A DNA stretch of 64,000 nucleotides, taken from NCBI RefSeq assembly GCF_004526345.1, contig NZ_CP038213.1:2852001-2916000 (forward strand), given 5' to 3'. The notes under the pieces were generated by a model. It worked only from the letters and a program-made list of their open reading frames with translations. It ran no database searches and was not told the DNA's origin. Numbering within the stretch: the first letter of the stretch is position 1; each line of letters begins with the position of its first letter. The stretch comes from Ornithinimicrobium flavum. GTDB lineage: Bacteria; Actinomycetota; Actinomycetes; Actinomycetales; Dermatophilaceae. A program made the translations under genes and the position numbers. Of this stretch, positions 2,899 through 50,367 are shown piece after piece.

Positions 2899-4236
2899 TC
2901 AGGTCGTGTCCAGCGCGTCCCCCGCCTGCTCGGGCAGGAGCAGCAGGGCCGCGACGGCACCGACTCCGAAGGCGAGGGCGAAGAGGACGAACAGGGCCGG
3001 GCTGCCCCACGCGGCCAGGACCACGGGCACCAGCAGCGGCGCGACGATGGAGGCGATGCGGCCGAAACCGGCCGCCGCCCCCGCCCCCGAGGCCCGCACC
3101 GACGTGGGGTAGATCTCCGGGGTGAGGGCGTAGAGGGCTCCCCAGGCGCCGAGGTTGAAGAAGCTCATGGCGCAGCCGGCCGCGATGATCTGCCACACCT
3201 CCCCCGACAGGCCGAAGAGCACGGCGGAGGCGGCCGAGCCGAGCAGGAAGGTCGCGAGCGTGGGCCGGCGTCCCCACGTCTCGACCAGGACGGCGGCCAC
3301 GGCATACCCCGGCAGCTGGGCCAGGGTGATGATCAGGGTGTAGCCGAAGGACCGGACCAGGTCGAAGCCCTGGGCGAAGAGCAGGGTGGGCAGCCAGATG
3401 AAGGCGCCGTAGTAGGAGAAGTTGACCATGAACCACACGAGCCAGATGCCGAGGGTCCGCCTCCGGTAGGTGGGCGACCACAGCTGGCCGGGGGTCCGCG
3501 GCCGGCTCGGCGGCAGCGGCCCGCTCACCGGGGAGGGGACCCCCGCCGAGCGCTCGAAGGAGCGCACGACCTCCTCGGCCTCCTCGGTGCGCCCCCGACG
3601 CTCGAGGAAGAGGGGCGACTCGGGCAGGCCCCACCGGACGACCACGGCGTAGACGGCCGGGACCATGCCCAGGGCGAAGGCCCAGCGCCAGCCCTGCTCC
3701 GAGGCCGGCACGACGAAGTAGCCCACGAGGGCGGCCAGGATCCCCCACCGCCCAGAACGACTCGAGGACGACGACCAGCCGCCCCCGGATCCGGGTGGGT
3801 GACAGCTCGCTCACCAGGGTGGAGGCCACCGGCAGCTCGGCCCCAGGCCCAGGCCCACGAGGAAGCGCAGCACGAGCAGCGCCGCCAGCCCGGTGACCAG
3901 GGCCGACGCGCCGGTGGCCAGCCCGTAGACCAGGAGCGTGAGCGCGAAGACGGTGCGCCGGCCGTACCGGTCGGCCAGCATCCCGCCGAAGGTCGCCCCG
4001 ATCGCCATACCGACGAAACCGATCGACAGCAGCCAGGACTGCTCGGTGCGGGACAGCTCCCACTGCTGGGCGATCGCCAGCCCGACGAAGCTGATCAGCC
4101 CGACGTCCATGGCGTCCAGGGCCCAGCCGGTGCCGGACCCGAGCAGGACGCGGGTGTGCTTGCGGGTGTACGGCAGCCGACCCATCCGCTCCGGACGGGT
4201 CGGCAGCGCCGGTGCGACGCTCTCCTCGGTCGGCAT
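2899..4236 (-). pseudogene. MFS transporter, NiaP/sugar-porter-like, two frameshifts
   Basis: Joining three frames gives about 445 residues of a 12-helix major facilitator. The N-terminal part (from ATG 4236) has GGMLADRYGRRT, the canonical loop 2-3 motif. The middle part reads ELPVASTLVSELSPTRIRGR, and the C-terminal half ends at 2899. A base is missing in the C run near 3841-3844. A second shift (one extra or two missing) lies near 3745 in ATCCCCCACC. It resembles NiaP/SVOP-like symporters of organic acids or niacin; the substrate is unknown. A TAGCAT hexamer eight bases before the ATG suggests a leaderless start. It may be intact in the organism if the indels are sequence errors. Confidence 0.72.
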
Positions 4237-4273
4237 GACCAGCGATGCTATGCGGTCCGACCGGGGGCCTGCG

Positions 4274-4771
4274 TCAGCGGTAGTTCGTGAACTGGATGGC
4301 GAAGTCCAGATCCTTGGTCTTGAGCAGCCGCTGGACCTCCTGCAGGTCGTCGCGGGACTTGGAGGTCACCCGCAGCTCGTCGCCCTGGATCTGGGGCTTG
4401 ACGCTCTTGGGCCCCTCGTCCCGGATGATCTTGGAGATCTTCTTGGCGTTCTCGCTGGAGATGCCCTCGGTCAGGGCGGCGTCGAGCTTGTACTCCTTGC
4501 CCGAGGCGCGGGGCTCACCGTCGTTGCTGTAGTCGAGGTGCTTGAGGGAGACGCCCCGCTTGACGAGCTTGGTCTGGAGCACGTCCAGGACGGCCTTGCA
4601 GCGCTCCTCGCTGTTCGCGGTCATCCTGATCGTGTCGCCGCTCAGCTCGACCGAGGCGCCGATGTTCTTGAAGTCGTAGCGCTGGCTGATCTCCTTGGCG
4701 GCCTGGTTGACGGCGTTGGCGACCTCCTGGCGGTCGACCTTGCTGACGATGTCGAAGGACGAGTCGGCCAT
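4274..4771 (-). CDS. yajQ: YajQ-family nucleotide-binding protein
   Basis: 165 residues, full length for YajQ/DUF520 ([20 protein letters not shown] at the start; [12 protein letters not shown] and the FTNYR end). The family has two ferredoxin-like folds and binds nucleotides; some members bind cyclic di-GMP. Its role here is unproven. AGGAGG lies nine bases before the ATG. It diverges from the tRNA-Tyr gene. Confidence 0.93.
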
Positions 4772-4795
4772 GGCGGCATACCTCCTGTGCTCGGG

Positions 4796-7227: not shown

Positions 7228-8102
7228 TCAGTAGCGGGTGATCCCCGGCTGCTGACCGTCGGCCATCCGCTGCAGCCGGGCGATCCGCTGGTCCATCGGG
7301 GGGTGGGTGGCGAACATCCGGGTCACGTCCTTGGCCCGGAACGGGTTGGCGATCATCATGTGGCTCGCGTTGACGACGTTCGGCTCGGGCGCGAGGGGGG
7401 CGCGGGCGGTGCCCACCTCCAGCTTGCGCAGGGCGGAGGCGAGGGCGAGCGGGTCCTCGGTCAGCCGGGCCCCGTCCTCGTCCGCGTCGTACTCCCGGGT
7501 CCTGCTGATCGCCAGCTGGATCACCGAGGCGGCGAACGGCGCCAGGAGAGCCATCGCGAGCAGGACGAGGGGGTTGGCGCCCTGGCCCCGGTTGCCCCCG
7601 CCGAAGAAGAGCATCATCTGGGCCACGGAGGTGATGACGCCGGCGATGGCCGCCGCCACCGAGCTGAGCAGGATGTCCCGGTTGTAGACGTGCATGAGCT
7701 CGTGGCCCAGCACCCCCCGCAGCTCGCGCTCGTCGAGCAGGTGCAGGATCCCCTCGGTGCAGCACACGGCCGCGTTCTTCGGGTTGCGGCCGGTCGCGAA
7801 GGCGTTGGGCGCCGCCGTCGGGCTGACGTAGAGGCGCGGCATCGGCTTGCCGGCCTTCTCGGAGAGCTCGTGCACGATGCGGTACATCGCCGGCTGCTCC
7901 TGCGGCGTCACGGGCCGGGCCCGCATGGCGCGGATCGCGAGCTTGTCGGAGTTCCAGTAGCTCCAGAAGGTGGTGCCGACACGATCAGTGCGAAGACCCA
8001 GATGAACCGTCCACCCTGGACCAGCGCGCCCATCCCGAGGAAGAGGGCCCAGATGGCGCCGAAGAGCAGCGTCGTCTTGAGCCCGTTGAAGTGCGAGTGC
8101 AT
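7228..8102 (-). CDS. htpX: HtpX-type membrane zinc metalloprotease (frameshifted in this sequence)
   Basis: Reconstructed length is 291 residues, normal for HtpX, the M48B inner-membrane protease that degrades misfolded membrane proteins. The N-terminal 40 residues ([20 protein letters not shown]) are in one frame. The rest, from [20 protein letters not shown] on, is in another. One base is missing near 7978-7984. The catalytic zinc motif HELMH and the downstream [10 protein letters not shown] glutamate region are intact. It lies just downstream of nuoN2 on the same strand. I think the gene is functional and the shift is a sequence error. Confidence 0.85.
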
Positions 8103-8158: not shown

Positions 8159-9676
8159 TCAGACGATCCCCAGGGGCATGACGCTGCCCGCCACGAGCAC
8201 GGCCGTGAGCAGGCCCACGAGCACGGCCACCGGGACCGGGGTATGCCGTGCCTCCCCGGCGTCGGGGTCCCCCTGCGTGTCCCCGTCACCCCGGCGGCCG
8301 ACCGCCGCGGGGGCACCGACGACGACGGCGAGCCAGCGCAGGTAGACGGCGATGCCGAGGGCGATGTTGCCGGCGGCGACCAGGGCCAGCCACAGCCACT
8401 CCGACCCACCACCGAGGACCGGCCGGAGCGCGACGATCTTGGCGACCACCCCGGCGATGCCGGGCGGCAGGCCCGCCAGGGTCAGCAGGGCCAGGGCCAG
8501 CGGGAGGGCCAGCAGCGGGCGCGACCGCAGCAGGCCGCGGTGCTCCTCCAGGGCCGTGCCGCCGCTCCCGCGGGACCGTGCGACCGCCGCGACGACCACG
8601 AAGGCCAGCAACGTCGCCACGACGTAGACCAGCAGGTAGGACCCGGCGGCGTGCGCGGCCCGGGAGGACAGCGAGACCAGCGGGAGCAGCACCCACCCGG
8701 CCTGCGCCACCGTCGACCAGGCCAGCAGCCGGACGGTGTCGCTCTGGGTGAGGGCGACCAGGTTGCCGAGCGTCATCGAGGCGGCTGCCAGGACGGCCAC
8801 GGCGACCAGGGTCGTCCCGTCGACGGCGCCCAGCGCCCGGACCACGACCACCAGGGCCCCGAGCGCCGCCACCTTGGACACGGTCGCGAGGTAGGCGGTG
8901 ACGGGCAGCGGCGCGGCCGCATACGTCACCGGGGTCCAGGCGTGGAACGGGACGGCCGAGACCTTGAAGGCCAGCCCGGCGACGAGCAGGACCGCGGCCA
9001 GGACCAGCAGGGGCGGGTGGTCGACGGACCCGGCGGCCCCTCCGGCGGCACCGAGGAGGGCGGTGCCCGTGGCGGCGACCCAGAGCGCCGCGCCGAGGGC
9101 GAGAAGGGCGAAGGACACCAGGGAGGTCGTCAGCAGGGCGACCGCACCCTCCACCGCCCGGGCCCGGCGTTCGTCGGCCCACGTGGTGCGGACCAGGGCG
9201 ACCAGCGCCACGGTCGGCAGGGTCGCCAGCTCGAGGGAGACCAGCAGCGTCCCGAGGTCCCCGGCCGCGGGGACGGCGACGACGCCGCCCGTGGCCCCCA
9301 GCAGCAGCGCGGCCACGACCGGGGTGCGTCCGGTCCGGTCCGACCCGTCCCCGGGGTCCGCCCAGTCGCGCCAGGTGAGGACCAGGACGACGAGCGCGGC
9401 CAGCAGCGCCGCCAGCTGGAGCGTGGAGGTCAGCCGGTCCGCGACGTAGAGGCACGGGCCGCCGTCCGGCAGGCACAGGGCGCCGCGGACGTCGCCGGCT
9501 CCGAGGCCCAGACCGGGAACCGTGCCCAGGGCCCCTGCCACCAGGCCGCCGGCGGCGACGGTGAGGTGACCGTCGCGGCCGCCGGGGACGGCGGCATCGA
9601 GCAGCAGCACCAGCACCGCCGCGACGAGGGGGGCCAGGACGGGCAGCACCGCCACGAGGTTCAGATCGAGAGTCAC
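8159..9676 (-). CDS. nuoN: NADH-quinone oxidoreductase subunit N, second set
   Basis: 505 residues from GTG 9676 ([18 protein letters not shown]), which overlaps the nuoM2 stop. It is an antiporter-like proton-channel subunit with many helices. Family signatures include [18 protein letters not shown] and [20 protein letters not shown] (lysine and histidine of the proton path). It is more divergent and richer in Ala/Val than the nuoN at 42 kb. It is the last gene of the nuoH-N2 run, followed by htpX after 56 bp. Confidence 0.88.
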
Positions 9677-11275
9677 CGGGCGATCACCGCCTCGGTCCAC
9701 GGGGCCGTCACGGTGAGCAGGAGTGCGGGGTGGACCCCGACCGCAAGGATGAGGGTGCTCAGCACGCCGAGCGCGACCCGCTCGGTCCGGATCGCGTCGG
9801 GGGTGCGCGGCTCCGCCCGGTCCCCCGACCAGACCTCGTGCAGGACCCGGGCCGCGTAGGCGACGGCGAGCACGGCGCCCAGGGCCCCCGCGACGACGAA
9901 CGCCCGGAACCATTCCTCCGGCCGGTCCGGGGCCGGGGTCCACGCGCCCAGCAGCGCACCGGTCTCGCCCCAGAAGCCGGCCAGGCCCGGCAGCCCCATG
10001 GACGCCGCCATCCCGAGCACGAGGGCCGCGCCGAGCCGGGGGTTGACCTCGCGCAGGGCGGCCCGCGCGACCGAGAGGTCGGCGGAGCCCCAGCGGTGCT
10101 TGAGCCCGCCGACGACGACGAAGAGCAGGGCGGAGATCAGGCCGTGCGCAACGTTGCCGAACAGCGCCGCCTGCATCCCGGTCGCCGTGCCCGAGGCCAG
10201 GCCGAGCACGACGAAACCCAGGTGCGCGATCGAGGACCACGCGACGAGGCGCTTCAGGTCCCGCTCGACCAGGCACGCCAGACCGGCCCAGACCACCCCG
10301 ACCACCCCCAGCCCGCCCAGCAGGGGGGCCCAGGTGGCGAACCCCTCGGGCACCACCGGCACGACCAGCCTGGCGATGCCGTAGGTCCCCAGCTTCAGCA
10401 GCACCGCGGCCAGCAGGACCGAGCCGGCGGTGGGGGCCGTCGCGTGGACCCAGGGAGCCAGGTGTGCAGCGGGAACACCGGGATCTTGAGGGCCAGACCG
10501 AGCAGCAGGACGGCGGCGACGACCACCTGGGTGCTCCGGTCCAGCCCGGTGGCGCCGGTGGCCGCCCACCGGGCCAGGTCGGTGGTGCCGGTGGCGGTGG
10601 CGAGCAGGAGCAGGCCGACCAGCAGGAGCGAGGAGCCGACCACGGTGACGACGAGAAAGCGCAGGGCCGCACCCTCACGGTCGCTGCCGGGGTCGCCGTA
10701 CCGCCCCACGAGCACCCACATCGGGACCAGGACCAGCTCGAAGCCGATGAAGAACAGGAGCGCGTCCCCCGCGAGGAAGGTGATGAGCGCCCCGAGCAGG
10801 ACCAGCAGGAGGCACGCGTGGTAGGTCGCCAGGCCGGGGACGTCGGTGCCCCGCAGGACGGGGATGGGCGCGGTCGGGCTCGTGCCCTGCAGGTCGGGCT
10901 CGGCAGGTCGCGGCGGCGGGGGGACGTGCAGGTGCAGTGACACGGCGACGACCCCGACGACGGCGGTGAGCAGCAGCAGCGGGGCGCTGAGGTCGTCCGG
11001 GACCAGACGCAGCCAGACGCCGAGGCTCGGGATCCAGGGCGCCTCGAGCTCCGGCCGGTGCAGGGCGACCCCGAGCACCGCGACGGCCGAGACGACCGCC
11101 GCGGCCAGCGACGTCAGGTGGACGGTCCGCCGGCCCGGCGGGGTCGGCCACCGCCCGGCGGCGAGCAGGGTCACCGCCGCCAGCAGCAGCGGGGCGAGGG
11201 CCAGCACGAGCCAGCCCGTGCCCAGGTCGGGCACCAGTGCGGTGGCGTCGTCGACGACCGAACGGAGGGTGGAGC

Positions 11276-11279
<4 letters not shown>
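9673..11279 (-). CDS. nuoM: NADH-quinone oxidoreductase subunit M, second set (frameshifted)
   Basis: Reconstructed length is about 535 residues from GTG 11279, which overlaps the nuoL2 stop. The first part contains FFIGFELVLVPMWVLVG and LKIPVFPLHTWLP. The rest continues in the next frame as WVHATAPTAGSVLLAAVLLKLGTYG, the universally conserved NuoM lysine segment. One base is missing near 10453, between the Pro codon and TGG. It is a proton-pumping membrane subunit. Because the shift falls inside a core motif and both sides are conserved, a sequence error is likelier than a pseudogene. Confidence 0.85.
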
Positions 11280-13308
<2,029 letters not shown>

Positions 13309-13312
<4 letters not shown>

Positions 13313-13688
13313 GCGACCTCCCCGTCCTGCGCCGGCGGGCGGTCCCGGTCCCGCGGGCGGTCCCGGTCCCGCGGATGCTCGGCGAGCGGCGCGTGCAGGT
13401 CGACGTGACCCCGGGCTCGGAAGAGGGCGAGCAGGATCGCCAGGGCGAGGACCACCTCGGCGGCGGCGATCGTGATGACGAAGAGGGTCAGGACCTGGGC
13501 GGAGGCGTGCGGGTCGGTCGCGGCGAGGCCGGTCTGCCCGACGGTGACCAGCAGCAGCCCGGCCGCCCCGAGGAGCAGCTCGACGCCGACGAGGACGAGC
13601 ACCGCGTGCCGACGGGCCAGGATGCCGTAGACACCCAGACCGGCCAGCGCCGCCACGAGGAAGAGTAGGGCAGGGCGGGGCGGATCAC
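13309..13688 (-). CDS. nuoK: NADH-quinone oxidoreductase subunit K, second set (frameshifted near start)
   Basis: Reconstructed length is about 126 residues from GTG 13688 (VIRPAL). It then shifts to the frame that reads LLFLVAALAGLGVYGILARR and VLVLVGVELLLGAAGLLLV, the NuoK signature with its membrane glutamate. One base is missing in the C run near 13668-13672. A start at an internal GTG in the second frame is possible but would remove part of helix 1. The C terminus has a charged Arg/Asp-Pro tail (PRDRDRPRDRDRP) beyond the usual length of about 100 residues. It overlaps nuoJ2 and nuoL2. Confidence 0.78.
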
Positions 13689-14268
13689 GACGCTCCGCCC
13701 GCGTCGCCGCCGTCGCCCTGGACCGCCTCGACCTCGGCGGGGGCGTCCGGTCGCCGGCTGGCGTCGTCGGCACCACCGACGGGCGCCCGCGCCACCGCGA
13801 CGCGACCGCGGCCACCAGGGCCAGGAGCAGCAGCGCGGACAGCAGCTCGAAGGGCCACACGTAGGTGCCGAAGATCCCGGTCGCCACCTCGGCGTTGTCA
13901 GGACCGGCGACCTCCACCGAGCCCCACCCGAAGGCGGCGAGGAGCGCACCGCCGAGCACCACGGTGGTGCCGGCGCCGACGAGCGCGGACGCCACGCGCT
14001 GCGGCACCGAGGTCACCACCGGCACCCCGCCCTGCCGCGTCAGCATGAGCGCGAAGAGCACGAGGACCACGACCGCCCCGACGTAGACGAGCAGCTGGAC
14101 CAGGGCCACCAGCTCCGCGCCCAGCACCAGGTAGCAACCGGCAAGCCCGCCGAGGGCCACGACGAGCCACAGCGCGGCATGCAGGACGTGCCGGGAGGTC
14201 ACCGCGAGAAGGCCGGCCCCACCCGTGAGGAGGCCGACCGCGACGAAGAGCACGTCAAGACCGCTCAT
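13685..14268 (-). CDS. nuoJ: NADH-quinone oxidoreductase subunit J, second set (frameshifted near end)
   Basis: About 194 residues after correction. It starts at ATG 14268 ([20 protein letters not shown]), with [21 protein letters not shown] as the conserved NuoJ helix 3. The visible frame runs on without a stop into nuoK2. A one-base change near 13780-13800 restores an acidic tail ending in GDAGGAS and a TGA at 13685-13687 that overlaps the nuoK2 GTG, the normal arrangement. The apparent NuoJ-NuoK fusion is therefore an artefact. It forms part of the proton-translocating membrane arm. Confidence 0.78.
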
Positions 14269-14887
14269 CGGGCTCCTCCCCCGCAGTCGCCTCGTCCTTC
14301 GTCTCCGCCTCGTCCTTCGTCTCCGCCGCCACGGCCGAGTCGCCCGGCACCGCCGCCGCGGCCCGGGCCTCGACCTGCTCGCTCGCGAGCTGCCCCGCCG
14401 GCGCGACCGGGGTGTCCTGCTGCCCCTCATACCCCTCCGGCCACGTCGACTCCGGCACCCGTCGCATCCAGGTGCCCAGCCGCTCCTTGTCGTGGAGCAG
14501 GTTGCGGATGTCACCCTCGGCGTAGGCGAAGTCGGGGGCCCAGAAGAGCGCGTCGAAGGGGCAGACCTCCACGCAGATGCCGCAGTACATGCACAGCGAG
14601 TAGTCGATGTCGAAGCGGTCCAGGACGTTCTTCTGCCGCGCGCGACCACCGCTGCCCGGTGGCGGTTCCACGGTCTCCTTGTGCGAGTCGATCGTGATGC
14701 ACCAGTCGGGGCACTCCCGCGCGCAGAGCATGCAGGACGTGCAGTTCTCCTCCAGCAGGGCGATCACGCCCCGGCTGCGCTCGGGCAGGTCCGGGGAGGT
14801 ATGGGGGTACTGCGCCGTGTGCGCACCCGCCCGGAGGGTGCGGGCCGTGGTGCGCAGCCCCGCGAGCAGACCCTTGACCGACCTCAT
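14255..14887 (-). CDS. nuoI: NADH-quinone oxidoreductase subunit I, second set
   Basis: 210 residues from ATG 14887. Two 4Fe-4S clusters are supported by [12 protein letters not shown] and [12 protein letters not shown]. The subunit relays electrons to the quinone site. The last 60 residues or so are an Ala/Glu/Asp-rich tail containing two copies of a six-residue ETKDEA unit, from an 18-bp tandem repeat. It overlaps nuoH2 by four bases and nuoJ2 by fourteen. With no nuoE/F/G alongside, this subunit could be an entry point for a ferredoxin electron donor (inference). Confidence 0.9.
14288..14323. repeat. Two tandem 18-bp units inside nuoI2
   Basis: Two identical 18-bp copies (14288-14305 and 14306-14323) encode the duplicated ETKDEA segment in the NuoI2 tail. 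Confidence 0.8.
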
Positions 14888-15858: not shown

Positions 15859-15866
15859 CGCCCGCC

Positions 15867-15872
15867 ACCCTA
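15867..15872 (-). promoter_or_regulatory. -10-like TAGGGT before nuoH2
   Basis: On the minus strand GGCTAGGGTG places TAGGGT eight bases before the nuoH2 ATG, implying a leaderless transcript. The same core and spacing precede nuoA2. No clear -35 is seen. Confidence 0.4.
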
Positions 15873-15921
15873 GCCAAGACCGCCCCCTTGCCGTGGCCCC
15901 CGCGCCGGACGCCCCCTGGCC

Positions 15922-18769: not shown

Positions 18770-19343
18770 CTACCGCGGTCCCCAGGACGGGTCCGGGACG
18801 CCCGGGGGCAGCAGCCGTCGGCGGGACGGGGACCGGCGTGCCGACGCCCCCCCCCTCACCCGGCTCCTTGGCGCCGGGCCACGGCTTGGACGCCCTGGCC
18901 CCCAGCACGAACTCCTTGCGCAGGGGCGTCCCCTCGAAGCCGTCGGGCAGCAGGAGGGGCCGGAGCCCCATACCCGTCCCGTCGTCGAAGTCCTCGAAGC
19001 CGATGCCGAACATCTCGGCGGTCTCCCGCTCGTGCCAGGCAGCGCCCGCGAAGACGTCGGTCACCGAGCGCACGCCCTGACCGTCCGGCACCCTCGTCAG
19101 CAGCAGGACGCGCCGCAGGCCGGAGCCCCCGCCCGCACCGCGCACGTCGATGAGGTGGCAGACGATGTCGAAGCCCGGCTCGGGCAGGCTGTCCTCCGCC
19201 ACCACCCCGGACGCCTCGGCCCCACCGTCGGTCTGGTCGACGGCGGACAACCAGTCGAAGTAGGCGTAGCCCTCGTCACGGGCGGCACGGACCGCGTCGT
19301 GCCACCCCTGGCGCTCGACCCGGCGCTGCTCCACCTGAGACAT
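18770..19343 (-). CDS. nuoC: NADH-quinone oxidoreductase subunit C, second set (frameshifted near end)
   Basis: About 190 residues after correction. The 30-kDa subunit motif WHERETAEMFGIGFED is present, then LRPLLLPDGFEGTPLRKEF. In the visible frame the gene reads on into DUF427. If one C is removed from the nine-C run at 18847-18855, the tail becomes RRRLLPPGVPDPSWGPR and ends at a TAG (18770-18772) just before the DUF427 ATG. A TAGGCT hexamer seven bases before ATG 19343 suggests its own leaderless promoter. It is separated from nuoA2-B2 by a DUF222 gene and from nuoH2 by three or more genes. Confidence 0.85.
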
Positions 19344-33269: not shown

Positions 33270-36117
33270 GTGGCCGTCCTTCTCAACCGTCTTGGCCGTT
33301 GGTGCGCCCGTCACCGGTGGGGCGTCGTCGCCGCCTGGGTGGCGCTGCTGGCGATCGTCGCCACCGGCGCCCTCACCCTGATGAAGCCGCTCAACAACAA
33401 CATCTCCATCCCGGGCAGCCGGTTCGAGACCGTGCTCGAGACGTTGCGCGAGGAGATCCCCGAGGCGTCCGGCACGACCGGCACCGTCGTCTTCACGGCG
33501 GACGAGCCGTTCACCGACGCGCAGCGCGAGGCGGTCGCCGGGGTCGTCGAGCAGTGGAACGCGATGTCCGGGGTCGAGGCCATCGACCCCTTCGCGAGCC
33601 AGGCCCAGGTGGACGCCACCTCCGGCGACCTGGCCGCGGGCCGCGCCGAGCTCGAGGAGGGTCGGGCGGAGCTGGAGCAGGGGGAGGCGGACCTCGCCGA
33701 CGCCCGTGAGCAGGTGGAGACCGGGCGCACGGAGCTGGAGGACGGGCGGGAGCAGCTCGAGGCCGGCCGCGCCGAGCTGGAGGCCGGGCGGACCGAGCTG
33801 GAGGCCGGCCAGGCCGAGCTCGACGCGCAGGCCCAGCAGCTGGACGCCGCGCAGGCCGAGCTCGACGCGCGCAGCGCCGAGCTCGAGGGTGGGGTCGCCG
33901 CGGGTCTCGTGCCGCCGGCGCAGGCCGAGGCCGCCCGCGCCGAGATCGCCGCGGGCCAGGCCCAGATCGACGGCGGGCGCCAGCAGCTGGCCGCCGGGCA
34001 GCAGCAGATCGACGCCGGGCTCGCGGAGATCGAGGCCGGCGAGGCCCAGCTGACCGCCGGCGAGGCCGAGCTGGTGGCGGCCGAGGAGCAGCTCGACGAG
34101 GCGCGCAGCAGATCGTCGACGGGGAGGCCGAGCTCGAGGCGGGACGCGCCGAGCTCGCGGACGGCGAGGCCCAGCTGGAGGCCGGCGAGCGCCTGGCCGC
34201 GCTCACCGACGGGCTGCGGGTCGTCAACGAGGCCGGCACCGTGGCGATGACCCAGGTGTCGGTGACCGGCGGCTCGGCCCAGGCCATCACGCCCGAGGTG
34301 GCCGACGAGATCCAGCGGATCGGCGACGCCATCGAGGACGGAAGCGGGGTGGAGGTGGACTTCTCCGCCGAGTTCGCGCTGGATCTCAACAGCGTCTTCG
34401 GCCCGGGCGAGGCGGTCGGCCTGGCCGTGGCCGGCCTGGTGCTGATCGTCATGCTGGGCAGCCTGGTCGCAGCGGGTCTCCCGATCCTCATGGCGCTGGT
34501 CGGGGTGGGGGTCGGGGTCGCCGGCTCCCTCGCGCTCTCGCCGCTCATCGAGATGCAGTCGATCACCCCGGTCCTGGCGCTCATGCTCGGCCTGGCCGTC
34601 GGGATCGACTACTCGCTCTTCCTCATCAACCGGCACCGCCAGCAGCTCCGGCACGGCATGCCGGTCCAGGAGTCGATCGCGCTGGCCGTGGGCACCTCGG
34701 GCAACGCCGTGACCTTCGCCGGGCTGACCGTCATCATCGCGCTGTCGGCCCTGGTGCTGACCGGTATGCCGTTCCTCGGCACCATGGGCCTCGTCGCCGC
34801 GGCCACCGTGGCCCTGTCGGTGCTCGTGGCCATCACCCTGACCCCGGCGCTGCTGTCCGTGATGGGCCTGCGGGTCCTGCCGAAGAAGGAGCGGGGGGCG
34901 ATCGCGGCCGGCGACCACGATCTCGCCGACGCCGACGACGCGCGGGAGGCCGACACCACCCGCGGCTGGGCCGCGGTGGTGCAGCGCCGTCCCTGGTTGG
35001 CCATCCTGGGCGTGATCGCGATCGTGGCGGCCCTGGGCTACCCCACGGGCCAGCTGCGGCTCGGCCTGCCGGACAGCAGCTCGGAGCCGCTGGGCTCGAC
35101 CGCCTACACCACCTACGACACCGTGCGCAGCGAGTTCGGCGCCGGGCCGCCGGGCCCATCCTGGCCGTCGCCGAGCTCGACGAGCCGATCGCCGAGGGTG
35201 AGGTCGCGCTGATCGACAAGCAGGCCGACATCGCCGAGGACCTGGCCGCCGTGGAAGGCGTGGAGCGGGTGCTGCCCGCAGGCGTCAACGACGCCCGCGA
35301 CGTGCTCGCCTTCCAGTTGCAGCCGGCCGGTGGACCCACGGAGGAGTCGACGGTCGCGCTGGTCGACCGCCTCGACGCCGACCTGGGCTCCCTCGGCGAG
35401 GAGCACGGCGCCAGCATCGACATCACGGGCCAGACCGTCGCGAACATCGACATCTCGGAGCAGCTCTCCGACGCGCTGCCGATCTACCTGCTGGTCGTCG
35501 TGGGCCTGTCGCTGATCCTCATGATGCTGGTCTTCCGGTCCATCTGGGTGCCGCTGCTGGCCACCGCCGGCTTCCTGCTGTCGATCGTCGCCGCCTTCGG
35601 CGCGGTCGTGGCCGTCTACCAGCTGGGGCACCTCGGCCCGGTCTTCGGGGTGCACGAGCCGGGGCCGGTGCTGTCCTTCCTGCCCATCCTGCTCATCGGC
35701 ATCCTCTTCGGGCTGGCGATGGACTACCAGGTCTTCCTCGTCTCGGCGATGCGCGAGGATCACGTGCACGGACGCGACGCGCGGACCGCGGTCGTCACCG
35801 GCTTCAACCACAGCGCCCGGGTCGTCACCGCGGCGGCGATCATCATGATCTCCGTCTTCGCCGGCTTCGTGTGGGCCCACCTGACGATGGTCCGGCCCAT
35901 CGGCCTGGGCCTGGCCCTGGGTGTGCTGGTCGACGCCTTCCTGGTCCGGATGACCCTCACCCCCGCGGTGCTGTCGCTGCTGGGCGAGCGCGCCTGGTGG
36001 CTGCCCCGCTGGCTGGACCGGATCCTGCCGGACGTCGACGTCGAGGGTGCCAAGCTCGAGCGGGCGCTCGGCGGGCCGTCCGCGGCTCAGGAGCCGGAGG
36101 TCGTCGCCAGCCGCTGA
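33270..36117 (+). pseudogene. MMPL/RND-family exporter with heptad-repeat coiled coil, two frameshifts
   Basis: Reconstruction gives 949 residues from GTG 33270 (AAAGGA site upstream). It has an N-terminal helix, then about 24 near-perfect seven-residue units (pattern GxAELEA, 33640-34197) forming two coiled-coil arms around a GLVPPAQ turn. Two MMPL blocks of six helices follow, with GLAVGIDYSLFLINRHR and ILFGLAMDYQVFLVSAMRED carrying the proton-relay Asp-Tyr pairs. A base is missing near 34110 and another near 35142. Both sides are well conserved, so it may be intact in the organism. Likely exports lipids or drugs under the adjacent TetR regulator. Confidence 0.75.
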
Positions 36118-40347: not shown

Positions 40348-40993
40348 TCACTTCTCGAAGAGCTTGGCCCCCAGCACGGCCGCCTGGGTGCGCCGCTCCA
40401 TCCCCAGCTTGGCCAGGAGCGAGGAGACGTAGTTCTTCACCGTCTTCTCGGCCAGGAACAGCTCCTGGCCGATCTGCCGGTTGGTGAGCCCGTCGGTGAT
40501 GAGCTCGAGGATGCGCTGCTCCCGGTCGGTCAGCAGGGCGAGCTTCTCGGCCTGGGGGTCGCGTCGGGGCTCGCGCAGCCGCTGGACCACCTTGCTCACC
40601 AGGGCCGGGTCGATGAGGGAGCGCCCGGAGGCGACGCTGCGGATCCCGTCGACGAGGTCGGTGCCGGCGATCTGCTTCAGGACGTAACCGTCGGCGCCGG
40701 CCATGATGGCGGCGAAGAGCGCGTCGTCGTCGTCGTAGCTGGTGAGGATGACCGCACGGATCCGCGGGTCGGCCGCACGCACGTCCCGGCACACCTCGAT
40801 CCCCGACCCGTCGGGCAGCCGACCGTCGAGCACCGCGACGTCGGGCACCAGGTCGACGATCTCGGCGGTCGCCCGCACGGCGCTGCCCGACCCCCACGAT
40901 CTCGATGTCGGGCTCGGCCGACAGCAGGTCGTGCAACCCCCGACGCACCAGCTCGTGGTCGTCGAGCAGGTAGACGCGGATGGGTGTCGCCAT
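40348..40993 (-). CDS. DevR/NarL-type response regulator (frameshifted)
   Basis: 214 residues after removing one base. The receiver domain has D11-D12, phospho-acceptor Asp56 (VAVLDGRLPDG) and the conserved Lys in GYVLKQ. The LuxR-type HTH (LTDREQRILELITDGLTNRQIG) ends in KTVKNYVSSLLAKLGMERRTQAAV, very close to mycobacterial DevR. One extra G in the run near 40892 breaks the frame after IVG. It lies 12 bp downstream of the polyprenyl synthase that ends the nuo operon, so it may be partly co-transcribed with nuo. Cognate kinase: probably the one at 37.2 kb. Confidence 0.86.
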
Positions 40994-41005: not shown

Positions 41006-42048
41006 TCAGCCCGCGCGGTGCGACACACCGTCGACGAGCGCCCGCAGCGCCTCGACGGCGGGGCCGGGCGGCAGGTCGACGAGGAGGTCGAGCGCCTCCT
41101 GCGCCACCCGGTCGGTGTGCCGGCGGGCCTGGTCCATGGCCGGGTGGGCCCGCAGCAGCGCCAGCGCCTCCGCCAGCTCCTCCGGGTCCTCGACCGCCCG
41201 CCGGGTCAGCTCCAGCAGCCTGGCGTCCGCGGGGTCGGTGGAGGTGCGCGCGTAGAGCACCGGCAGGGTGGCCTTGCCCTCGCGCAGGTCGGCACCGGGC
41301 GTCTTGCCCGAGTCGCTGGACTCCGAGGCGATGTCGAGCAGGTCGTCGGCGAGCTGGAAGACCACGCCCAGCTTCTCCCCGAAGGCGGTGAGGGTCACGA
41401 CCGTGGCGGGCTCGCACCCGCCGAACATCGCGCCGTAGCGGGCCGCCGTGGAGATGAGGGAGCCCGTCTTGTCCGCCAGGATGGACAGGTATGCCGTCAC
41501 CGCCGCCGGGTCGTCCGCGGCCCCGGCGAGGGTGTCCCCCGCCCCGGAGGTGCCGGCCCGCTCACCCTCGGCGACCTGCCGGTCGTCCCGGATCTGCCCG
41601 GCGCACAGCCGCACGAAGGTGTCGGCCTGGATGCGCACCGCCTCGGCGCCCAGCCCGGCCACGACCCTGGAGGCCGTCCCGAAGAGCAGGTCGCCGATGA
41701 GGATCGCCGTGGAGTTGCCGTAGCGGGAGTTCGCGCTCTCGACCCCCGCCGCAGCTCGGCCTCGTCCATGACGTCGTCGTGGTAGAGGGAGGCCAGGTGG
41801 GTCAGCTCGACCCCGACGGCCGCGTCGACGACGTGCTCGTCCCACCCCCGGCCGACCTCGCTCGCCAGCAGGGTGAGCAGCGGGCGGAAGCGCTTGCCCC
41901 CGGCAGCCACGAGGTGCCCCGACGCCTCGGCGATGAAGGGGTCGTCGTGGTCGACGACCTCCTCCAGCCGACGCGCGACCGCCGCCATGCCGTCGGCCAC
42001 GCGGGCCTGCAGCGCCTCGTCGACCCCCGGGAGCGTGGGGACGCTCAC
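41006..42048 (-). CDS. grcC: Long-chain polyprenyl diphosphate synthase (frameshifted)
   Basis: 347 residues after restoring one base near 41747. The first Asp-rich motif is DDVMD (SLYHDDVMDEA) and the second is DDLLD (QLADDLLDI). The fifth residue before the first motif is Ala, consistent with a long product such as the octa- or nonaprenyl chain of menaquinone. It overlaps nuoN by ATGA and is probably the last gene of the nuo operon, a common actinobacterial arrangement. It supplies the side chain for MenA. Confidence 0.87.
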
Positions 42049-43586
42049 CGGACGAAGGCCGCGGCGCTCTGGGCGAGGTCGAGGACGGGCGCGGGCATCA
42101 CGCCCAGGGCCAGGGTGACCACGACGCCGACGACGATCGCGAAGGTCGTCATCCAGGACGGGTCGGCCACGGCGGTGTCGCCGGCCTCGTCACCCAGCCA
42201 CATGGCCACGACCAGCTTGAAGTAGATGTAGGCCGTCACCGCGCTGGCCAGGACACCCAGGACCGCCAGCCACGCCCAGCCCTGGCTGACCGCGGCCGAG
42301 AAGACCGCGAACTTGCCGGTGAACCCCGAGGTCAGGGGGATGCCGGCGAAGGCCATGAGCAGGAAGGTGAAGGCGGCGGCCAGCCAGGGTGCCCGTCGGC
42401 CCAGACCCCGCCACTGCTCGACCAGGGTCGCCTCGGTGCCCGAGGAGCGGACCAGGGCCACGACGGCGAAGGCCGGGATGGTCATGAAGCCGTAGGTCAT
42501 GAGGTAGAAGATCGTGCTCGAGATGCCGACCTCGTCCAGGGCGATGACCCCGGTGAGGATGAACCCCGCGTGCGCGATCGAGGAGTAGGCGAGGATCCGC
42601 TTGACGTCGGTCTGGACGACCGCGAGCAGCGCACCGACGACCATGGACAGCGCGGCCACCACGGCGATCACCGGCTGCCAGTCCAGGGCGGCGCCCTCGA
42701 CGGCGACGTAGAGGACCCGCAGCATCGCCCCGAAGGCCGCGACCTTGGTGCAGGCGGCCATGAAGCCGGTGACGGGGGTCGGGGCACCCTGGTAGACGTC
42801 GGGCGTCCAGGAGTGGAACGGCACCGCACCCACCTTGAAGAGCAGGCCCACGGCGACCAGCAGCACACCGGGGACCAGCAGGCCGTTCATCCCCACCTCG
42901 GTGCCGATCGCGGCCGCGATGTCGGCGAACCGCATCGACCCGGCGAAGCCGTAGAGCAGCACGGCCCCGAAGAGGAAGAAGGCCGAGGCGAAGCTGCCGA
43001 GCAGGAAGTACTTGAGCGATGCCTCCTGGGAGAGCATCCGCCGGCGACGGGCCAGGCCGGTGAGGATGTAGAGCGGCAGGGACAGCACCTCGAGGGCGAT
43101 GAAGAGCAGCAGCAGGTCGTTGGCGGCGACGAAGAGCATCATGCCGCCGACGGAGAACAGCGTGAGCGGGAAGACCTCGGTGGTCGTCGCCCCCAGGCGC
43201 ACGGCCTGTGTCTCCGCGGCGGACCCCGGGCTGGAGGCGCCGGCCTGGGTGAAGGCGTCCGGCTGCGGCCCGCCGAAGCGCTCGGCCATGACCATCATGC
43301 CGAGGATCGCCAGCAGGAGGATGAGCCCCTGCAGGACCAGGGCGGCACCGTCGACGGCGACCGTGTCGGCGGCGGTCAGGCCCTGGCGGTCCCGGCCGAG
43401 CACGACCAGGGCGACGAAGGCCAGGACCAGGGTCGCGACGGCCAGCGGGACCTGCACGGCATACCGCGACCCCCGGCCGGCGAAGCCCTCGACGAGCACG
43501 CCGGCAAGACCTCCCACGAAGACGATGATCATCGGCAGGAGCGCCACGTAGTCGATCTCGGGCGCGACGAACATGGAGCCACCCAT
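42045..43586 (-). CDS. nuoN: NADH-quinone oxidoreductase subunit N
   Basis: 513 residues and about 14 helices. LLFKVGAVPFHSWTPDVYQGAPTPVTGFM and VQTDVKRILAYSSIAHAGF are the canonical proton-channel motifs. ATGA overlaps join it to nuoM and to the polyprenyl synthase. It is part of the main 14-gene nuo operon. Frame intact. Confidence 0.96.
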   Translation of the reverse strand: MGGSMFVAPEIDYVALLPMIIVFVGGLAGVLVEGFAGRGSRYAVQVPLAVATLVLAFVALVVLGRDRQGLTAADTVAVDGAALVLQGLILLLAILGMMVMAERFGGPQPDAFTQAGASSPGSAAETQAVRLGATTTEVFPLTLFSVGGMMLFVAANDLLLLFIALEVLSLPLYILTGLARRRRMLSQEASLKYFLLGSFASAFFLFGAVLLYGFAGSMRFADIAAAIGTEVGMNGLLVPGVLLVAVGLLFKVGAVPFHSWTPDVYQGAPTPVTGFMAACTKVAAFGAMLRVLYVAVEGAALDWQPVIAVVAALSMVVGALLAVVQTDVKRILAYSSIAHAGFILTGVIALDEVGISSTIFYLMTYGFMTIPAFAVVALVRSSGTEATLVEQWRGLGRRAPWLAAAFTFLLMAFAGIPLTSGFTGKFAVFSAAVSQGWAWLAVLGVLASAVTAYIYFKLVVAMWLGDEAGDTAVADPSWMTTFAIVVGVVVTLALGVMPAPVLDLAQSAAAFVR

Positions 43587-45118
43587 CAGCGGCCACTCCC
43601 CTCAGCGGTGGTGTCGACAGCCGGGGCGGGATCGGTGACCCCCACGGTCTGCATGGTCTGCTGCACGGCGGGCTCGAGCACGTCGAGCACCGGCTGCGGG
43701 AAGAAGCCGAGCACCAGGAAGGCGACGATGAGCGGGGCCACGACCCACTTCTCCCGGCCGGTCATGTCCGGGACGACCCGGTCGCCCAGCTCGGGCCGGG
43801 GGCCCGTGGCGATCTTCTGGTACATGACCAGGATGTAGATCGCGGCGACGATGACGCCCAGGGCGGCGATGAGGCCGACCCACCAGGTGCGCTGGAAGGT
43901 GCCGATGATGACGAGGAACTCGCTGACGAAGGAGTTCAGCCCCGGCAGGGCCAGGCCCGACAGACCCGAGACGAGCAGGGCCCCGGCGATGAGCGGGGTG
44001 ACCCGCTGCCAGCCGCCGAAGTCGCTCATGGAGCGCGAGCCGCGCCGCATGATGAGCATGCCCGCCACGAGGAACAGCCCGGCGGCGGTGAAGCCGTGGT
44101 TGACCATGTAGAGGGTGGCACCGGTCTGGCTGACGGTCGTGAAGGCGAAGATGCCCAGGACGATGAAGCCGAAGTGGCTGACCGAGGTGTAGGCGATGAG
44201 CCGCAGGATGTCGTCCTGACCGATCGCCAGGAAGGCACCGACGAAGAGCGAGACCAGCGCCAGCGTGATGATGACCGGGGTCGCCCACTGGCTGGCCTCC
44301 GGGAAGAGCGTGAGGCAGAAGCGGATCATGCCGTAGGTGCCGACCTTGTCCAGCACCCCGACCAGCAGGACCGAGGTCGCCGGGCGAGCCTGCTCGGCGG
44401 CCAGCGGCAGCCAGGTGTGGACCGGCCACATCGGCGCCTTGATCGCGAAGGCGATGAAGAAGCCCAGGAAGAGCCAGCGCCCGGCCTCCACCGACAGGTC
44501 CAGACCGGTCAGGTTGGTGACGAGGAAGCCGTCGGTGCCGCGGGGGCCGGCCAGGTAGACCCCGATGACGGCGACCAGCATGATGAGCCCGCCGGCCAGG
44601 GAGTAGAGCAGGAAGGTGGTCGCCGCACGGGCCCGCCGGGCCCCGCCGAACATCCCGATGAGGAAGTAGACCGGGACGAGCATCGCCTCGAAGAAGACGT
44701 AGAAGAGGAAGACGTCCATCGCCGCGAAGACACCGACCATCATCGGGGCCAGCGAGAGCATGAGGGCGAAGTAGGTGTGCTGACGGCGGCCGACGGCCGG
44801 GACGTCGTCCCAGGCCGCGACGATGCAGATCGGCAGCAGGACCAGGCTCAGCAGGATCATCGTCAGCGAGATGCCGTCGATGCCCAGGGCGTAGGAGACG
44901 CCGAACTGCGGGATCCACGAGTAGATCTCGGTGAGCTGGAACTGCTCGGTGCCGCCGACCTGGAACTGGGTGGCCATCGCGACGCCGACCGCCAGGGTCA
45001 GCAGCGAGACGCCGAGCGCGACCGGGCGCACCGCCGTGCTGCCCTTGGGCAGCAGCGCCACGACCAGGGCGCCGAGTGCCGGCAGCACCAGCAGCGTGGT
45101 CAACCAGGGGAAGTTCAT
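43586..45118 (-). CDS. nuoM: NADH-quinone oxidoreductase subunit M
   Basis: 510 residues from ATG 45118 (MNFPWLTTLLVLPALGALV). Antiporter-like subunit with FFEAMLVPVYFLIG, IKAPMWPVHTWLP and LDKVGTYGMIRFCL. In this sequence the frame also continues upstream into nuoL because of an indel there, giving a false 1159-residue protein. The overlapping nuoL stop and this ATG mark the true boundary. Confidence 0.95.
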   Translation of the reverse strand: MNFPWLTTLLVLPALGALVVALLPKGSTAVRPVALGVSLLTLAVGVAMATQFQVGGTEQFQLTEIYSWIPQFGVSYALGIDGISLTMILLSLVLLPICIVAAWDDVPAVGRRQHTYFALMLSLAPMMVGVFAAMDVFLFYVFFEAMLVPVYFLIGMFGGARRARAATTFLLYSLAGGLIMLVAVIGVYLAGPRGTDGFLVTNLTGLDLSVEAGRWLFLGFFIAFAIKAPMWPVHTWLPLAAEQARPATSVLLVGVLDKVGTYGMIRFCLTLFPEASQWATPVIITLALVSLFVGAFLAIGQDDILRLIAYTSVSHFGFIVLGIFAFTTVSQTGATLYMVNHGFTAAGLFLVAGMLIMRRGSRSMSDFGGWQRVTPLIAGALLVSGLSGLALPGLNSFVSEFLVIIGTFQRTWWVGLIAALGVIVAAIYILVMYQKIATGPRPELGDRVVPDMTGREKWVVAPLIVAFLVLGFFPQPVLDVLEPAVQQTMQTVGVTDPAPAVDTTAEGSGR

Positions 45119-47065
45119 CACTGCATCACCCACACGACACCGAGGATGGCGACGACACCGAGCAGCATCGTCATGGCATAGGAGCGGACGAACCCGTTCT
45201 GGGCCCGCCGCAGGACGGACGCGAGCCCGCCCACGGCCGAGACGGCACCACCGGTGGTGGCACCCTCGACGATCACCCGGTCGGCCTCCACCATGGTGGC
45301 GGCGCCGGTGATGGTCGGGCCGACGAACAGCGCGTCGTTGACCTCGTCCTGGTAGAGGTCCTTCCGGGCGGCCCGGGTGAGGGCGCTGCCCTCCGGCGCG
45401 ACCACGGGGACCTCCCGGGCCGTACATCATCCAGGCCAGGCCGACGCCGATCGCCATGAGCACGAAGACCGAGACCTGGATGCCGATCAGCGGGATCAGC
45501 GGCTCGGCCTCGGCCACGTGACCGAACACCGGGTCCAGCCAGTTCGGGAGGATGCCCGTGGGGTAGAGGACCGCGCCGAGCACGAGCGATCCGAGCGCCA
45601 GGATCATCATCGGGACCGTCATGGTCAGCGGCGACTCGTGCGGGTGCTGGTCGTCCTCCCAGCGGGCCTTGCCGTGGAAGGTCATGAAGAACAGGCGCGA
45701 CATGTAGAAGGCCGTGATCCCGGCGCCCAGCAGAGCGACCAGGCCGAAGACCCAGCCCTGCCAGCCCGGCGCGGAGAAGGCGGACTCGATGATGTGGTCC
45801 TTGGAGAACCAGCCCGCGGTGAACGGGAAGCCGATGATGGCCAGCCACCCCGCCGCGAAGGTGATCCAGGTGATCTTCACCTCGCGGGACAGCGCGCCGA
45901 AACGTCGCATGTCGACGCGGTTGTTCATCGCGTGCATGACCGACCCGGCGCCCAGGAACATGTTGGCCTTGAAGAACCCCTGCGTGATGAGGTGGAAGAT
46001 CGCGTACGTGTAACCGATCGGGCCCAGCCCGACGGCGAGCATCATGTAGCCGATCTGGGACATCGTCGAGGCCGCCAGGGCCTTCTTGATGTCGTCCTTC
46101 GCGCAGCCGACGATCGCGCCGTAGAGCAGGCTGACCGCACCGACGACGGCGACCGCGAGCCGGGCGTCCGGCGTGAGGTCGTAGATCGCCTGGCTGCGGG
46201 CCACCAGGTAGACGCCGGCGGTGACCATCGTCGCGGCGTGGATGAGCGCCGAGACGGGGGTCGGGCCGGCCATCGCGTCGCCCAGCCAGCTCTGCAGGGG
46301 GAACTGCGCGGACTTGCCGCAGGCCGCGAGCAGCAGGGCCAGGCCCATGAGGGTGAGGGTCAGGGGGCTGGCGCCCTCGGCGTTGCCGTGCACCGTGGCG
46401 AAGTCGAGCGCGCCGAAGGTGGCGAGCATCATCGCCATGGCGGTGATGAGCCCGACGTCACCGACCCGGTTGACGATGAACGCCTTGTTGGCGGCGGCCG
46501 CGTAGTCCGGGTTGGAGTTCCAGAAGCCGATGAGCAGGTAGGAGGCCAGACCGACACCCTCCCAGCCCAGGAAGAGCAGGAGGTAGGAGTCGGCCAGGAC
46601 CAGGATGAGCATGGCTGCCACGAAGAGGTTCAGGTAGGCGAAGAACCGGCGCTTGTCCGGGTCGTGCTCCATGTAGCCCAGGGAGTAGACGTGGATGAGC
46701 GAGCCCACGAACGTGATGAGCATGACGAAGGCCATGGACAGCGGGTCCATGAGCAGCCCGGCCCGCAGGGTGAGGTCACCGACCGCCACCCACTCCCACA
46801 GCGGCAGCTGCAGGGCGCGGTCCCCGGGGGCGAACCCGGTCATCTGGACGATGACGAGCGCGCCGACCACGAACGAGCCCCAGGAGAGCACGGTGGCCAG
46901 CAGCGGCCCGAACGAGTCGGTGGCGCGACCGCCGACGAGCAGCAGGGCGGCGCCCAGCAGCGGCAGGGCGATCATGAGCCACCCGACCTGCGCCATACCC
47001 CCGGAGACAGCGTCGTAGGCCATGGGCTCGCTGGCCGCCAGAGCGAGCGACGAGAGCGGAATCAC
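45118..47065 (-). CDS. nuoL: NADH-quinone oxidoreductase subunit L (frameshifted)
   Basis: 648 residues after correction. GWEGVGLASYLLIGFW, KSAQFPLQSWLGDAMAGPTPVSALIHAATMV and the C-terminal lateral helix are present. An extra C near 45423 breaks the frame after AWMMYG. The remaining 100 residues or so (VAPEGSALTRAARKDLYQDE to VWVMQ) are in another frame and end at 45118. It is the largest proton-pumping subunit and essential for function, so a sequence error is likely. An upstream alternative ATG at MAYDAV is possible. Confidence 0.9.
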
Positions 47066-47377: not shown

Positions 47378-48267
47378 CAGCGGCTCTCCTCCTCGTGCGC
47401 AGCCGTGTCGTCCAGGTGCAGCCGCCGGCCCTCGTCGTCGGTGGTGGCCACCTGACCCTCGGGGAGGTCACCCGGGAGGATGTCGCCCGGGGGCTCGCCC
47501 GCGGCGGTGCCGGTGGTCAGCCGGTAGTCGGCGGGGTTGGTGACCTGACCGCGCGCGACGAGCACGCGCGGGACGGACTCCTCCACGGGCGTGCCGTCAG
47601 GCCGCAGACCGGGGGTGTCGGCCGCGTTGTGGCGGGCGTAGACACCAGGGTTGGGCTTCCCCGCGAGCCAGGTGCCGCGGCGCAGGGCCTCGGTCGACAT
47701 CTCGCGCTGGCCGCGGCTCGGGGTGAGCCGCTCGCGGTGGGCCAGCACCATCGCCCCCATGACCGCGATGACCAGCAGGGCGCCGAGCACCTCGAAGGGC
47801 AGCACCTGGCGCTCGAAGATCTCGCGCGCCAGGGCGGTGACGGTGCCCTCGCTCTGCGCGCCGTCCTCCAGGGTGACGTCCGGGGTGGGCCAGCGGACGG
47901 ACGTCAGCGCCATCACCGCGCCGACGATGAGCAGCAGCCCGAGCAGTGCGGCCCAGAGGCGCTGGCCGCGCAGGGTCTCCACCATCGAGTCCGAGGCGTC
48001 CACGCCGATGAGCATGACCACGAAGAGGAAGAGCATCATCACCGCGCCGGAGTAGACGAACACCTGGATGATGCCGACGAACTCCGCACGCTGTGCGATG
48101 TAGATGACGCCCAGGCTGACCATGACCATGGCCATGGCCATGGCGGCGTGGACCGCCTTGCGCGCGAAGAGGAGCCCCAGCGCACCGACCACGGCGATGG
48201 CGGCCATCACCCAGAACAGGGTGACCTCCATCCCGGTGATCATCTCGGGGGCGGGGGTTGGGTTCAC
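47377..48267 (-). CDS. nuoJ: NADH-quinone oxidoreductase subunit J
   Basis: 296 residues from GTG 48267. Five helices include [23 protein letters not shown], the pi-bulge helix. A hydrophilic C-terminal tail of about 110 residues follows, longer than in proteobacteria but usual in actinobacteria. An internal ATG (MITGMEV) is an alternative start. Its overlap with the nuoI stop is hidden here because the nuoI indel puts both genes in one frame. Confidence 0.93.
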
Positions 48268-48954
48268 CGCGGGACCTCCTGCTGCTCCGCCTGCTCGCGC
48301 TCGGCGACGTAGTCCTTCTGGGCCTGGGTGGCACCGGTGACCTGGCCGCGGTAGTAGTCGCGCTCCTCCATACCCTCCGCCATCGGGAACGGCGGGGGGC
48401 ATGTCGGGACCGACGGGAGCCAGCAGCTGGTGCTTCTCGTAGATGAGGGGCTGGCGCGCGGTGTCGGCCATCTCGTACTCGTTGGTCATGGTGAGGGCGC
48501 GGGTCGGGCAGGCCTCGATGCACAGGCCGCAGAAGATGCAGCGCAGGTAGTTGATCTGGTAGACGCGGCCGTAGCGCTCACCGGGCGAGAAGCGGGCCCC
48601 GGGGATGTTGTCGGCACCCTCGACGTAGATGGCGTCGGCCGGGCAGGCCCAGGCGCACAGCTCGCACCCCACGCACTTCTCCAGCCCGTCGGGGTGACGG
48701 TTGAGCTGGTGCCGGCCGTGGAAGCGCTTGGCGGTGGGGCGCTTGACCTCGGGGTACTCCTGCGTGGGCACCTTGCGGAACATCGTCGCGAAGGTGACGC
48801 CGAAGCCGGCGACGGGGGCGAAGAACTGGCCCAGGATCCCGGGCTCCTTCTTGCCGCCGGTGGGGTCGACGGACGGCTGCGCCGGCGGGGGCGCGCTCGG
48901 ACGCCGCTGCGGGCTGGTGCTGCCCTCCGGGGTCGGGTCGGTCTGGTCAGCCAC
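48264..48954 (-). CDS. nuoI: NADH-quinone oxidoreductase subunit I (frameshifted)
   Basis: 229 residues after correction, from GTG 48954. Two 4Fe-4S motifs are present: [12 protein letters not shown] and [12 protein letters not shown]. An extra base near 48397, in or next to the CCCCCC run after GPDM, shifts the frame. The restored tail reads [20 protein letters not shown] and ends at TGA 48264-48266, overlapping nuoJ. The N terminus has a Pro/Ser-rich extension. It carries electrons from NuoG towards NuoB. Confidence 0.9.
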
Positions 48955-50367
48955 GGCTCTCCTCCGGGTCGTCGGTGGTGGTCGTGCTCGCCGGGACGGC
49001 GCTGGCCTGCTCCAGCCGGCGGCCGGCGCCGGGCTCGACGAGCGTCTGGCCCGGCAGCGGGGGCACGGGGTAGCCCTCCGCGAAGGGGTCGACCTCGTCG
49101 GGGACGGCCTCGCGCTCCTCCCGCTCGGCCGCGCGCCGTTGCGCGCTGCGGTCCCAGGCGAAGATCCCCAGGAGCACCACCAGGCCGATGCCCAGCAGGG
49201 TGAGGACGAGGTCGAAGCGGCCGCCGCCGAAGAAGCCCTCCTGGGCGGCACGGATGAGGATGACAGCGACCACCCACACCAGCGACAGCGGGATCAGCAG
49301 CTTCCACCCAGGTGCATGAACTGGTCGTAACGCACCCGCGGCAGGGAGCCGCGGAGCCAGACGTAGAAGAAGATGAAGCCCCACATCTTCAGGGTGAACC
49401 ACAGCAGACCCCACCAGCCCTCGGAGAGCATGCCGTCCCCGATGAGGTTGAGCGGCCACGGGGCGTGGTAGCCGCCGAGGAAGAGCGTGGTCGCCAGGGC
49501 CGAGACGGTGAACATGTTGACGTACTCGCCCAGGAAGAACATGCCGAACTTCATCGAGGAGTACTCGGTGTGGAAGCCACCACCGAGCTCACCCTCACCC
49601 TCGGCGAGGTCGAAGGGCAGCCGGTTTGTCTCCCCGACCAAACCCATGGTGATGAGGTAGACGACGAAGGAGAAGAACAGCGGCACGACATACCACATCG
49701 GGATGCCGAGCCAGGTCTGCTGCGCCTGCGCGGCCACGATCTGGCTGGTGGACATCGACCCCGAGAACAGGAAGACCGCGACCAGGGACAGCCCCATCGC
49801 GATCTCGTAGGAGATGACCTGGGCCGTGGAGCGGATGCCGCCGAGCAGGGGGTAGGTCGAGCCCGAGGACCAGCCGGCGAGCACGAACCCGTAGGCACCG
49901 ACCCCGGCGACCGCCAGCACGAGCAGCACCGCGACGGGGGTGTCGGTGAGCTGCAGCGGGGTGGTGTGTCCGAACATGCGCACCTCCCCCGCCATCGGGA
50001 TGATCGCGAAGGAGACGAACGCCAGCGACCCCACCATGAGCGGCGCCGCGATGAACATCAGCTTGTCCGCGGCCTTGGGGGTGACGTCCTCCTTGAAGAA
50101 CAGCTTGATGCCGTCCGCGGCCGTCTGGAGCAGGCCCAGGGGGCCGAACCGGTTGGGGCCGGGACGCTGCTGCATCCGGCCGATCACGCGGCGCTCGAAC
50201 CAGATGACGATGACCACGGAGAGCATGAGGTAGACGAAGACCAGCGCGGCCTTGATGAGCGACAACCACCAGGGGGTGTCGCTGAAGTCGGCGGCCGGGA
50301 AGTCGCTGCGCGAGCCCAGCTCGGCACCGGCCGCGAGGATCTGCGGGTATGCGGTCACGACGCTCAT
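48947..50367 (-). CDS. nuoH: NADH-quinone oxidoreductase subunit H (frameshifted)
   Basis: 473 residues after restoring one base near 49310. The first 353 residues or so include [27 protein letters not shown] and the quinone-site [21 protein letters not shown]. The shift falls in [18 protein letters not shown], a strictly conserved segment. The final helix and a long charged C-terminal tail (about 100 residues, actinobacterial feature) follow in the second frame. Overlaps nuoG by ATGA. Confidence 0.91.

Follow-up and report, generated by a model that had tools for sequence, protein, structure and literature searches.

The 64,000-base stretch of the Ornithinimicrobium flavum genome analysed here (hereafter the window; assembly GCF_004526345.1, contig NZ_CP038213.1, positions 2,852,001 to 2,916,000) contains fourteen sites at which conserved protein-coding genes switch reading frame, and these breaks are almost certainly uncorrected consensus errors rather than mutations in the organism. 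Such breaks are spread across the genome record (one contig of 3,712,913 bases; completeness 99.73%), are mostly of deletion-type sizes, and strike essential genes, among them those for ribosomal proteins L2 and S3. A sequence-only reading of the window had noticed the fourteen switches and preferred consensus error to gene decay. All fourteen are supported by related genomes, within about 20 bases of the places first given, and the preference is borne out by the breaks in ribosomal genes, the absence of premature stops at the threshold applied, the genome-wide density of breaks and the single-frame orthologues of relatives.

Detection of frame breaks

Breaks were identified by comparison with open reading frame (ORF) products from the syntenic stretches of ten genomes of the same genus (G004 and G008 were left out), which were compared with the window initially by tblastn and afterwards with a dynamic-programming aligner permitting frame changes. 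A site was called if at least three reference genomes shared the sign of the shift and supporters outnumbered opponents. Nine relatives were treated as targets in the same manner and served as controls, with G003 used as a reference only. The window yielded 15 calls in 54,241 covered bases, comprising the fourteen sites and a further call at 14289, compared with a total of 6 calls in 507,175 covered bases for the nine controls (0, 0, 1, 1, 4, 0, 0, 0 and 0). All four calls of the one high control belong to G010, itself a single contig (L124-L127), in which one of the four breaks lies in nuoG, matching in two pieces. The call at 14289, made by three references, was rejected as a gene junction at the start of a nuoJ-type gene, a junction effect that arises because reference ORFs extend past gene starts; candidates at 63288 and 4772 were dropped, their support being poor or confined to a single reference.

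A second, reference-free detector was provided by a hidden Markov model (HMM) scan of reading frames, to which a filter removing calls explicable by a nearby stop could be applied. It made 12 calls in the window, of which 11 were among the fourteen sites, while missing those at 13665, 13803 and 18848; one call made by the HMM only, at 22353, was not counted. The case shows that a reference-free scan of reading frames is able to flag such a record.

Breaks in essential and conserved genes

The window alone is not decisive, because natural loss of complex I or of transporters is possible. In many cases complex I can be dispensed with, and the same may be true of the second complex I cluster and of the MFS transporter, MMPL and response regulator genes of the window. 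The sequence-only reading had argued that nuoH, nuoI, nuoL, htpX and a polyprenyl synthase gene should be under strong selection; all five are indeed affected, but for complex I the argument is weaker than it appears, because of this dispensability, and it is the ribosomal genes that carry the case. Both rplB and rpsC are essential. The sole rplB (L2) match here spans positions 1-252 of the 275-position model, compared with positions 1-274 in a single frame in 27 other genomes of the genus (three of the 31 genomes have no match). In rpsC (S3), three -1 breaks are found relative to G002, with the remainder of the gene nearly unchanged; the third, at position 182, falls below reference calling but was seen both with G002 and by the HMM, and was counted. 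The clpX gene is split at position 173 into two overlapping pieces; among the 31 genomes, one has no clpX match and the drafts G003 and G004 also carry the gene in pieces, in G004 within one frame. A ClpP gene contains two -1 breaks, and in transketolase the split falls at model positions 261/264. When NCBIfam models were applied to ten pieces flanking HMM breaks, only the transketolase pair proved consecutive, the four other pairs being uninformative or non-consecutive.

These genes bear directly on real decay, in which the strain would hold many true frameshift pseudogenes, acquired for example after a mutator phase. Such a history could account for a window whose broken genes are perhaps in many cases dispensable, for the intactness of the large essential genes ileS, rpoB and alaS, and for two sites fitting +2 and +5 as might follow replication slippage. 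It is nonetheless very improbable. Essential genes were not spared, with single-copy rplB and rpsC broken; clpX and a clpP gene are broken too. Nonsense mutations would be expected together with frameshifts, yet neither the window nor any of the three other stretches (left, right and ileS-side) had a premature in-frame stop that reached the threshold of three references. Identity to relatives is also alike before and after the break at the 11 breaks measured, in keeping with the earlier observation that the coding signal is intact on both sides. In ten control runs on the left and right stretches of relatives, stop calls were absent from eight and numbered 4 in G010 and 2 in G001; frame-break calls were 4 and 3 for the pair of G010 runs and 0-2 for each of the other eight.

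Programmed ribosomal or transcriptional frameshifting could restore the proteins and would explain why both frames flanking the breaks are conserved. In relatives the orthologues keep to a single frame, for nuoH in 29 of the 31 genomes of the genus and for rplB in 27 of the 28 where it was matched, so that there is no conserved recoding site; moreover, break sizes differ, and 16 break contexts inspected by eye have no evident shared motif. Programmed frameshifting can accordingly be given hardly any weight. It is scarcely credible that the deletions are real and that full-length S3, L2, ClpX and complex I are made by permissive decoding or frame-correcting slippage across hundreds of genes. 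The two genomes without a single-frame nuoH are the present one and G026, a single contig in which the gene lies in two frames (G026:C1:2607812-2609205). The truncated 357-aa NuoH occurs on one contig, its own, among the matches listed (120 of 7,985), and the closest other NuoH among them is a 471-aa protein, with 96% identity over 99% of the query, found on ten contigs. For the polyprenyl synthase ORF, the best match in a protein search reached 85% over 55% of the query, and no near-identical copy was found.

Break density across the genome

The HMM scan was extended to forty 20-kb pieces of the record (800 kb), with ten 20-kb pieces each of G011 and G002 as controls. It made 112 calls in the sample before filtering and 77 after. 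Filtered density per 100 kb was 9.6 in the sample and 9.4 in the window, compared with 2.5 in G011 (5 calls) and 2.0 in G002 (4 calls), a break rate approximately four times that of these relatives. Filtered densities understate the true values because the filter also loses true sites, reducing the 12 window calls to 6. Without the filter, density per 100 kb came to 14.0 for the sample, 18.8 for the window and 6.5 and 5.5 for the pair of controls, whose nonzero background amounts to 13 and 11 calls in 200 kb each. In break density, the window does not stand out from its genome. Among the 40 pieces, density varies beyond chance (p 0.001). In syntenic stretches, filtered density per 100 kb was 6 for G010 and 25 and 15 for the two 20-kb pieces of G003 (L145 and L144), which are frameshift-rich, the HMM having made 6 calls in one and 3 in the other. 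The present record is therefore not the sole one affected.

The densest of the 40 sampled pieces holds twelve HMM breaks within 10 kb (L154:1761-11269). Elsewhere, a single strand carries five HMM breaks in roughly 1 kb, two of them supported by references (L161:16751-17753). Six calls at L170:16620-17265, which derive from one ORF family antisense to neighbouring genes, were not counted, and neither was a call at 17754 of the left stretch, with three references for and two against.

Base runs and break sizes

The sequence-only reading had placed most of the breaks in or next to runs of C or G. An association with homopolymers is present but falls short of a majority of sites: 6 of the 15 calls fall no more than 3 bases from a run of at least four of any base, against a background of 13% (p 0.009), and 5 of 15 near a run of at least five, against 4% (p 0.0002). 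Within 6 bases, the enrichment for runs of four is weak (p 0.066). The 15 positions tested include the rejected 14289, and positions given by the aligner may be some bases off.

Break sizes were estimated by rerunning the aligner with 2-base changes also permitted, -2 being assigned from at least two references per site without another gap nearby. Six sites fit -1, four -2, one +2 and one a net +5, while those at 18848 and 34104 gave no size; the ten that size cleanly at 1-2 bases are all deletions. The earlier description of single-base indels thus applies to the six -1 sites and not to the four of -2 or to those of +2 and +5. The sites at 13665 (+2) and 13803 (net +5) lie approximately 140 bases apart in neighbouring genes, and are the best candidates for a mixed origin, in which most breaks are consensus errors and one or two are real. 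Consensus errors may, however, exceed one base, and HMM breaks of both frame classes occur throughout the record; a mixed origin is accordingly rather unlikely.

Origin of the breaks

Uncorrected consensus error could have arisen as follows. The record was most likely built from long reads without sufficient depth or polishing with accurate reads, such that the consensus would have kept deletions of 1-2 bases at difficult places, short base runs among them. Each such deletion would shift the downstream codons into another frame. The G+C content of the window is approximately 73% and wrong frames stay open over long stretches; because a shifted frame is often long open in G+C-rich DNA, genes would then seem cut short or joined to adjacent ones. 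In the cells, the genes would be intact.

Consensus error is here inferred from the assembled sequence and its relatives, as are the sequencing technology and the read depth. Several observations weigh against it as the origin of the breaks. The first essential genes tried (ileS, rpoB and alaS) are each in one frame, as is dnaA, which is matched from model position 20 and lies close to the contig start. Break density is uneven, because no break was called in the 28.6 covered kb to the right of the window. The sites at 13665 and 13803, which are not short deletions, could be real mutations. An overall shortening of G/C runs was looked for in the window and not seen, runs of five being if anything abundant. 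In favour of consensus error, break density climbs the farther a piece lies from dnaA (rho 0.43, p 0.005), as would be expected of depth-limited errors if read depth is lower near the terminus; this trend was sought post hoc, however, and none reached significance in the 20 unfiltered control pieces (rho 0.17, p 0.46), a number too small to rule out a like trend there.

Precedents and implications

The phenomenon is an already known artefact, and its practical value here is that of a warning. The Kastor work describes long-read assemblies in which short indels fragment genes, with deletions tied to homopolymers, with hundreds to about a thousand apparent frameshifted pseudogenes in one draft and with completeness scores that overestimate quality (PMC12007338). 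The present record resembles these assemblies in its short indels, homopolymer association, apparent pseudogenes and over-optimistic completeness; the errors there, however, occur mostly at A/T runs and can be checked against reads, whereas the DNA considered here is 73% G+C and only its consensus is at hand (PMC12007338). In nanopore assemblies of high-G+C Pseudonocardia, indels are over-represented at homopolymers and become fewer with coverage, of which the high-G+C genome needed more; the likeness lies in the homopolymer-enriched indels, though nanopore sequencing is established there and would only be presumed here (PMC6325685). Single-contig metagenome-assembled genomes from canine feces, also from nanopore reads, similarly combine one contig with frameshift errors, which stand out more where coverage is low; the present record may be either a metagenome-assembled genome or an isolate (PMC8103633).

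By rough extrapolation, some 600-700 false frame breaks may sit in this record despite its completeness of 99.73%. This figure is based on 24 supported breaks in approximately 133 kb covered by at least three references (window 14, left 6, right 0, ileS-side 4), in pieces that are non-random and variable in density. Counts of gene loss, fusions and pseudogenes taken from this record would be wrong, and its 'broken' or 'fused' genes would not reflect biology.

The affected genes of the window

By family assignment, the fourteen sites fall in 12 genes, rather than the eleven first counted. An MFS transporter gene (- strand) is broken twice, at 3738..3750 (called at 3742), fitting a 2-base deletion, and at 3840..3852 (called at 3846), fitting a 1-base deletion, each with four references for and none against. 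The htpX gene (- strand) is broken at 7976..7988 (called at 7982), where a 1-base deletion fits with nine references for and none against; its orthologue scores above the NF002839 HtpX cut-off. Two breaks interrupt an MMPL-family transporter gene (PF03176; + strand). The first, at 34098..34128 (called at 34104; HMM call at 34102; four for, none against), lies in a repetitive, low-complexity coiled coil and is a weak site without a size; together with 13665 and 13803, it is the least secure of the fourteen. The second, at 35143..35156 (called at 35150), fits a 1-base deletion (six for, none against). A LuxR-type response regulator gene (PF00072, PF00196; - strand) is broken at 40885..40900 (called at 40891), fitting a 2-base deletion (three for, none against), and the polyprenyl diphosphate synthase gene (PF00348; - strand) at 41736..41750 (called at 41742), fitting a 1-base deletion (nine for, none against).

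The main nuo operon contains three of the sites, all on the - strand and unopposed by any reference: nuoL (NF005141) at 45412..45426 (called at 45418; 2-base deletion, eight references), nuoI (NF004537) at 48392..48404 (called at 48399; 2-base deletion, ten references) and nuoH (NF004743) at 49304..49316 (called at 49311; 1-base deletion, ten references). The nuoL break gives rise to an apparent NuoL-NuoM protein, a 1159-aa ORF carrying a pair of antiporter domains (43586-47065). In the same way, NuoC and DUF427 domains come together in a 367-aa ORF (18258-19361). Both apparent fusions are by-products of frame breaks, as the earlier advice to distrust fusions in this sequence had anticipated.

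A second complex I-type cluster (8159-19361, - strand), with approximately 30 kb between it and the main nuo operon, comprises NuoM-, antiporter-, NuoK-, NuoJ-, NuoH- and NuoC-type genes, four of which are broken. The NuoM-type gene, whose orthologue passes TIGR01972, is interrupted at 10450..10463 (called at 10457), fitting a 1-base deletion (nine for, none against). The NuoK-type gene (PF00420) is broken near its start at 13660..13672 (called at 13665), fitting +2, with four references for and two against, or five for and one against in another run; the NuoJ-type gene (PF00499) is broken near its end at 13795..13812 (called at 13803), fitting a net +5, with four for and one against, or five for and one against in another run. 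Near the end of the NuoC-type gene (PF00329), beside a 9-base run of C, lies the unsized break at 18842..18858 (called at 18848; nine for, none against). The NuoH-type gene of this cluster (14884-15858) is in one frame. Also free of called breaks are an ORF at 17307-18239 (- strand) matching a beta-keto acid cleavage enzyme and an ORF at 27898-30072 (+ strand) matching pyruvate ferredoxin oxidoreductase domains.

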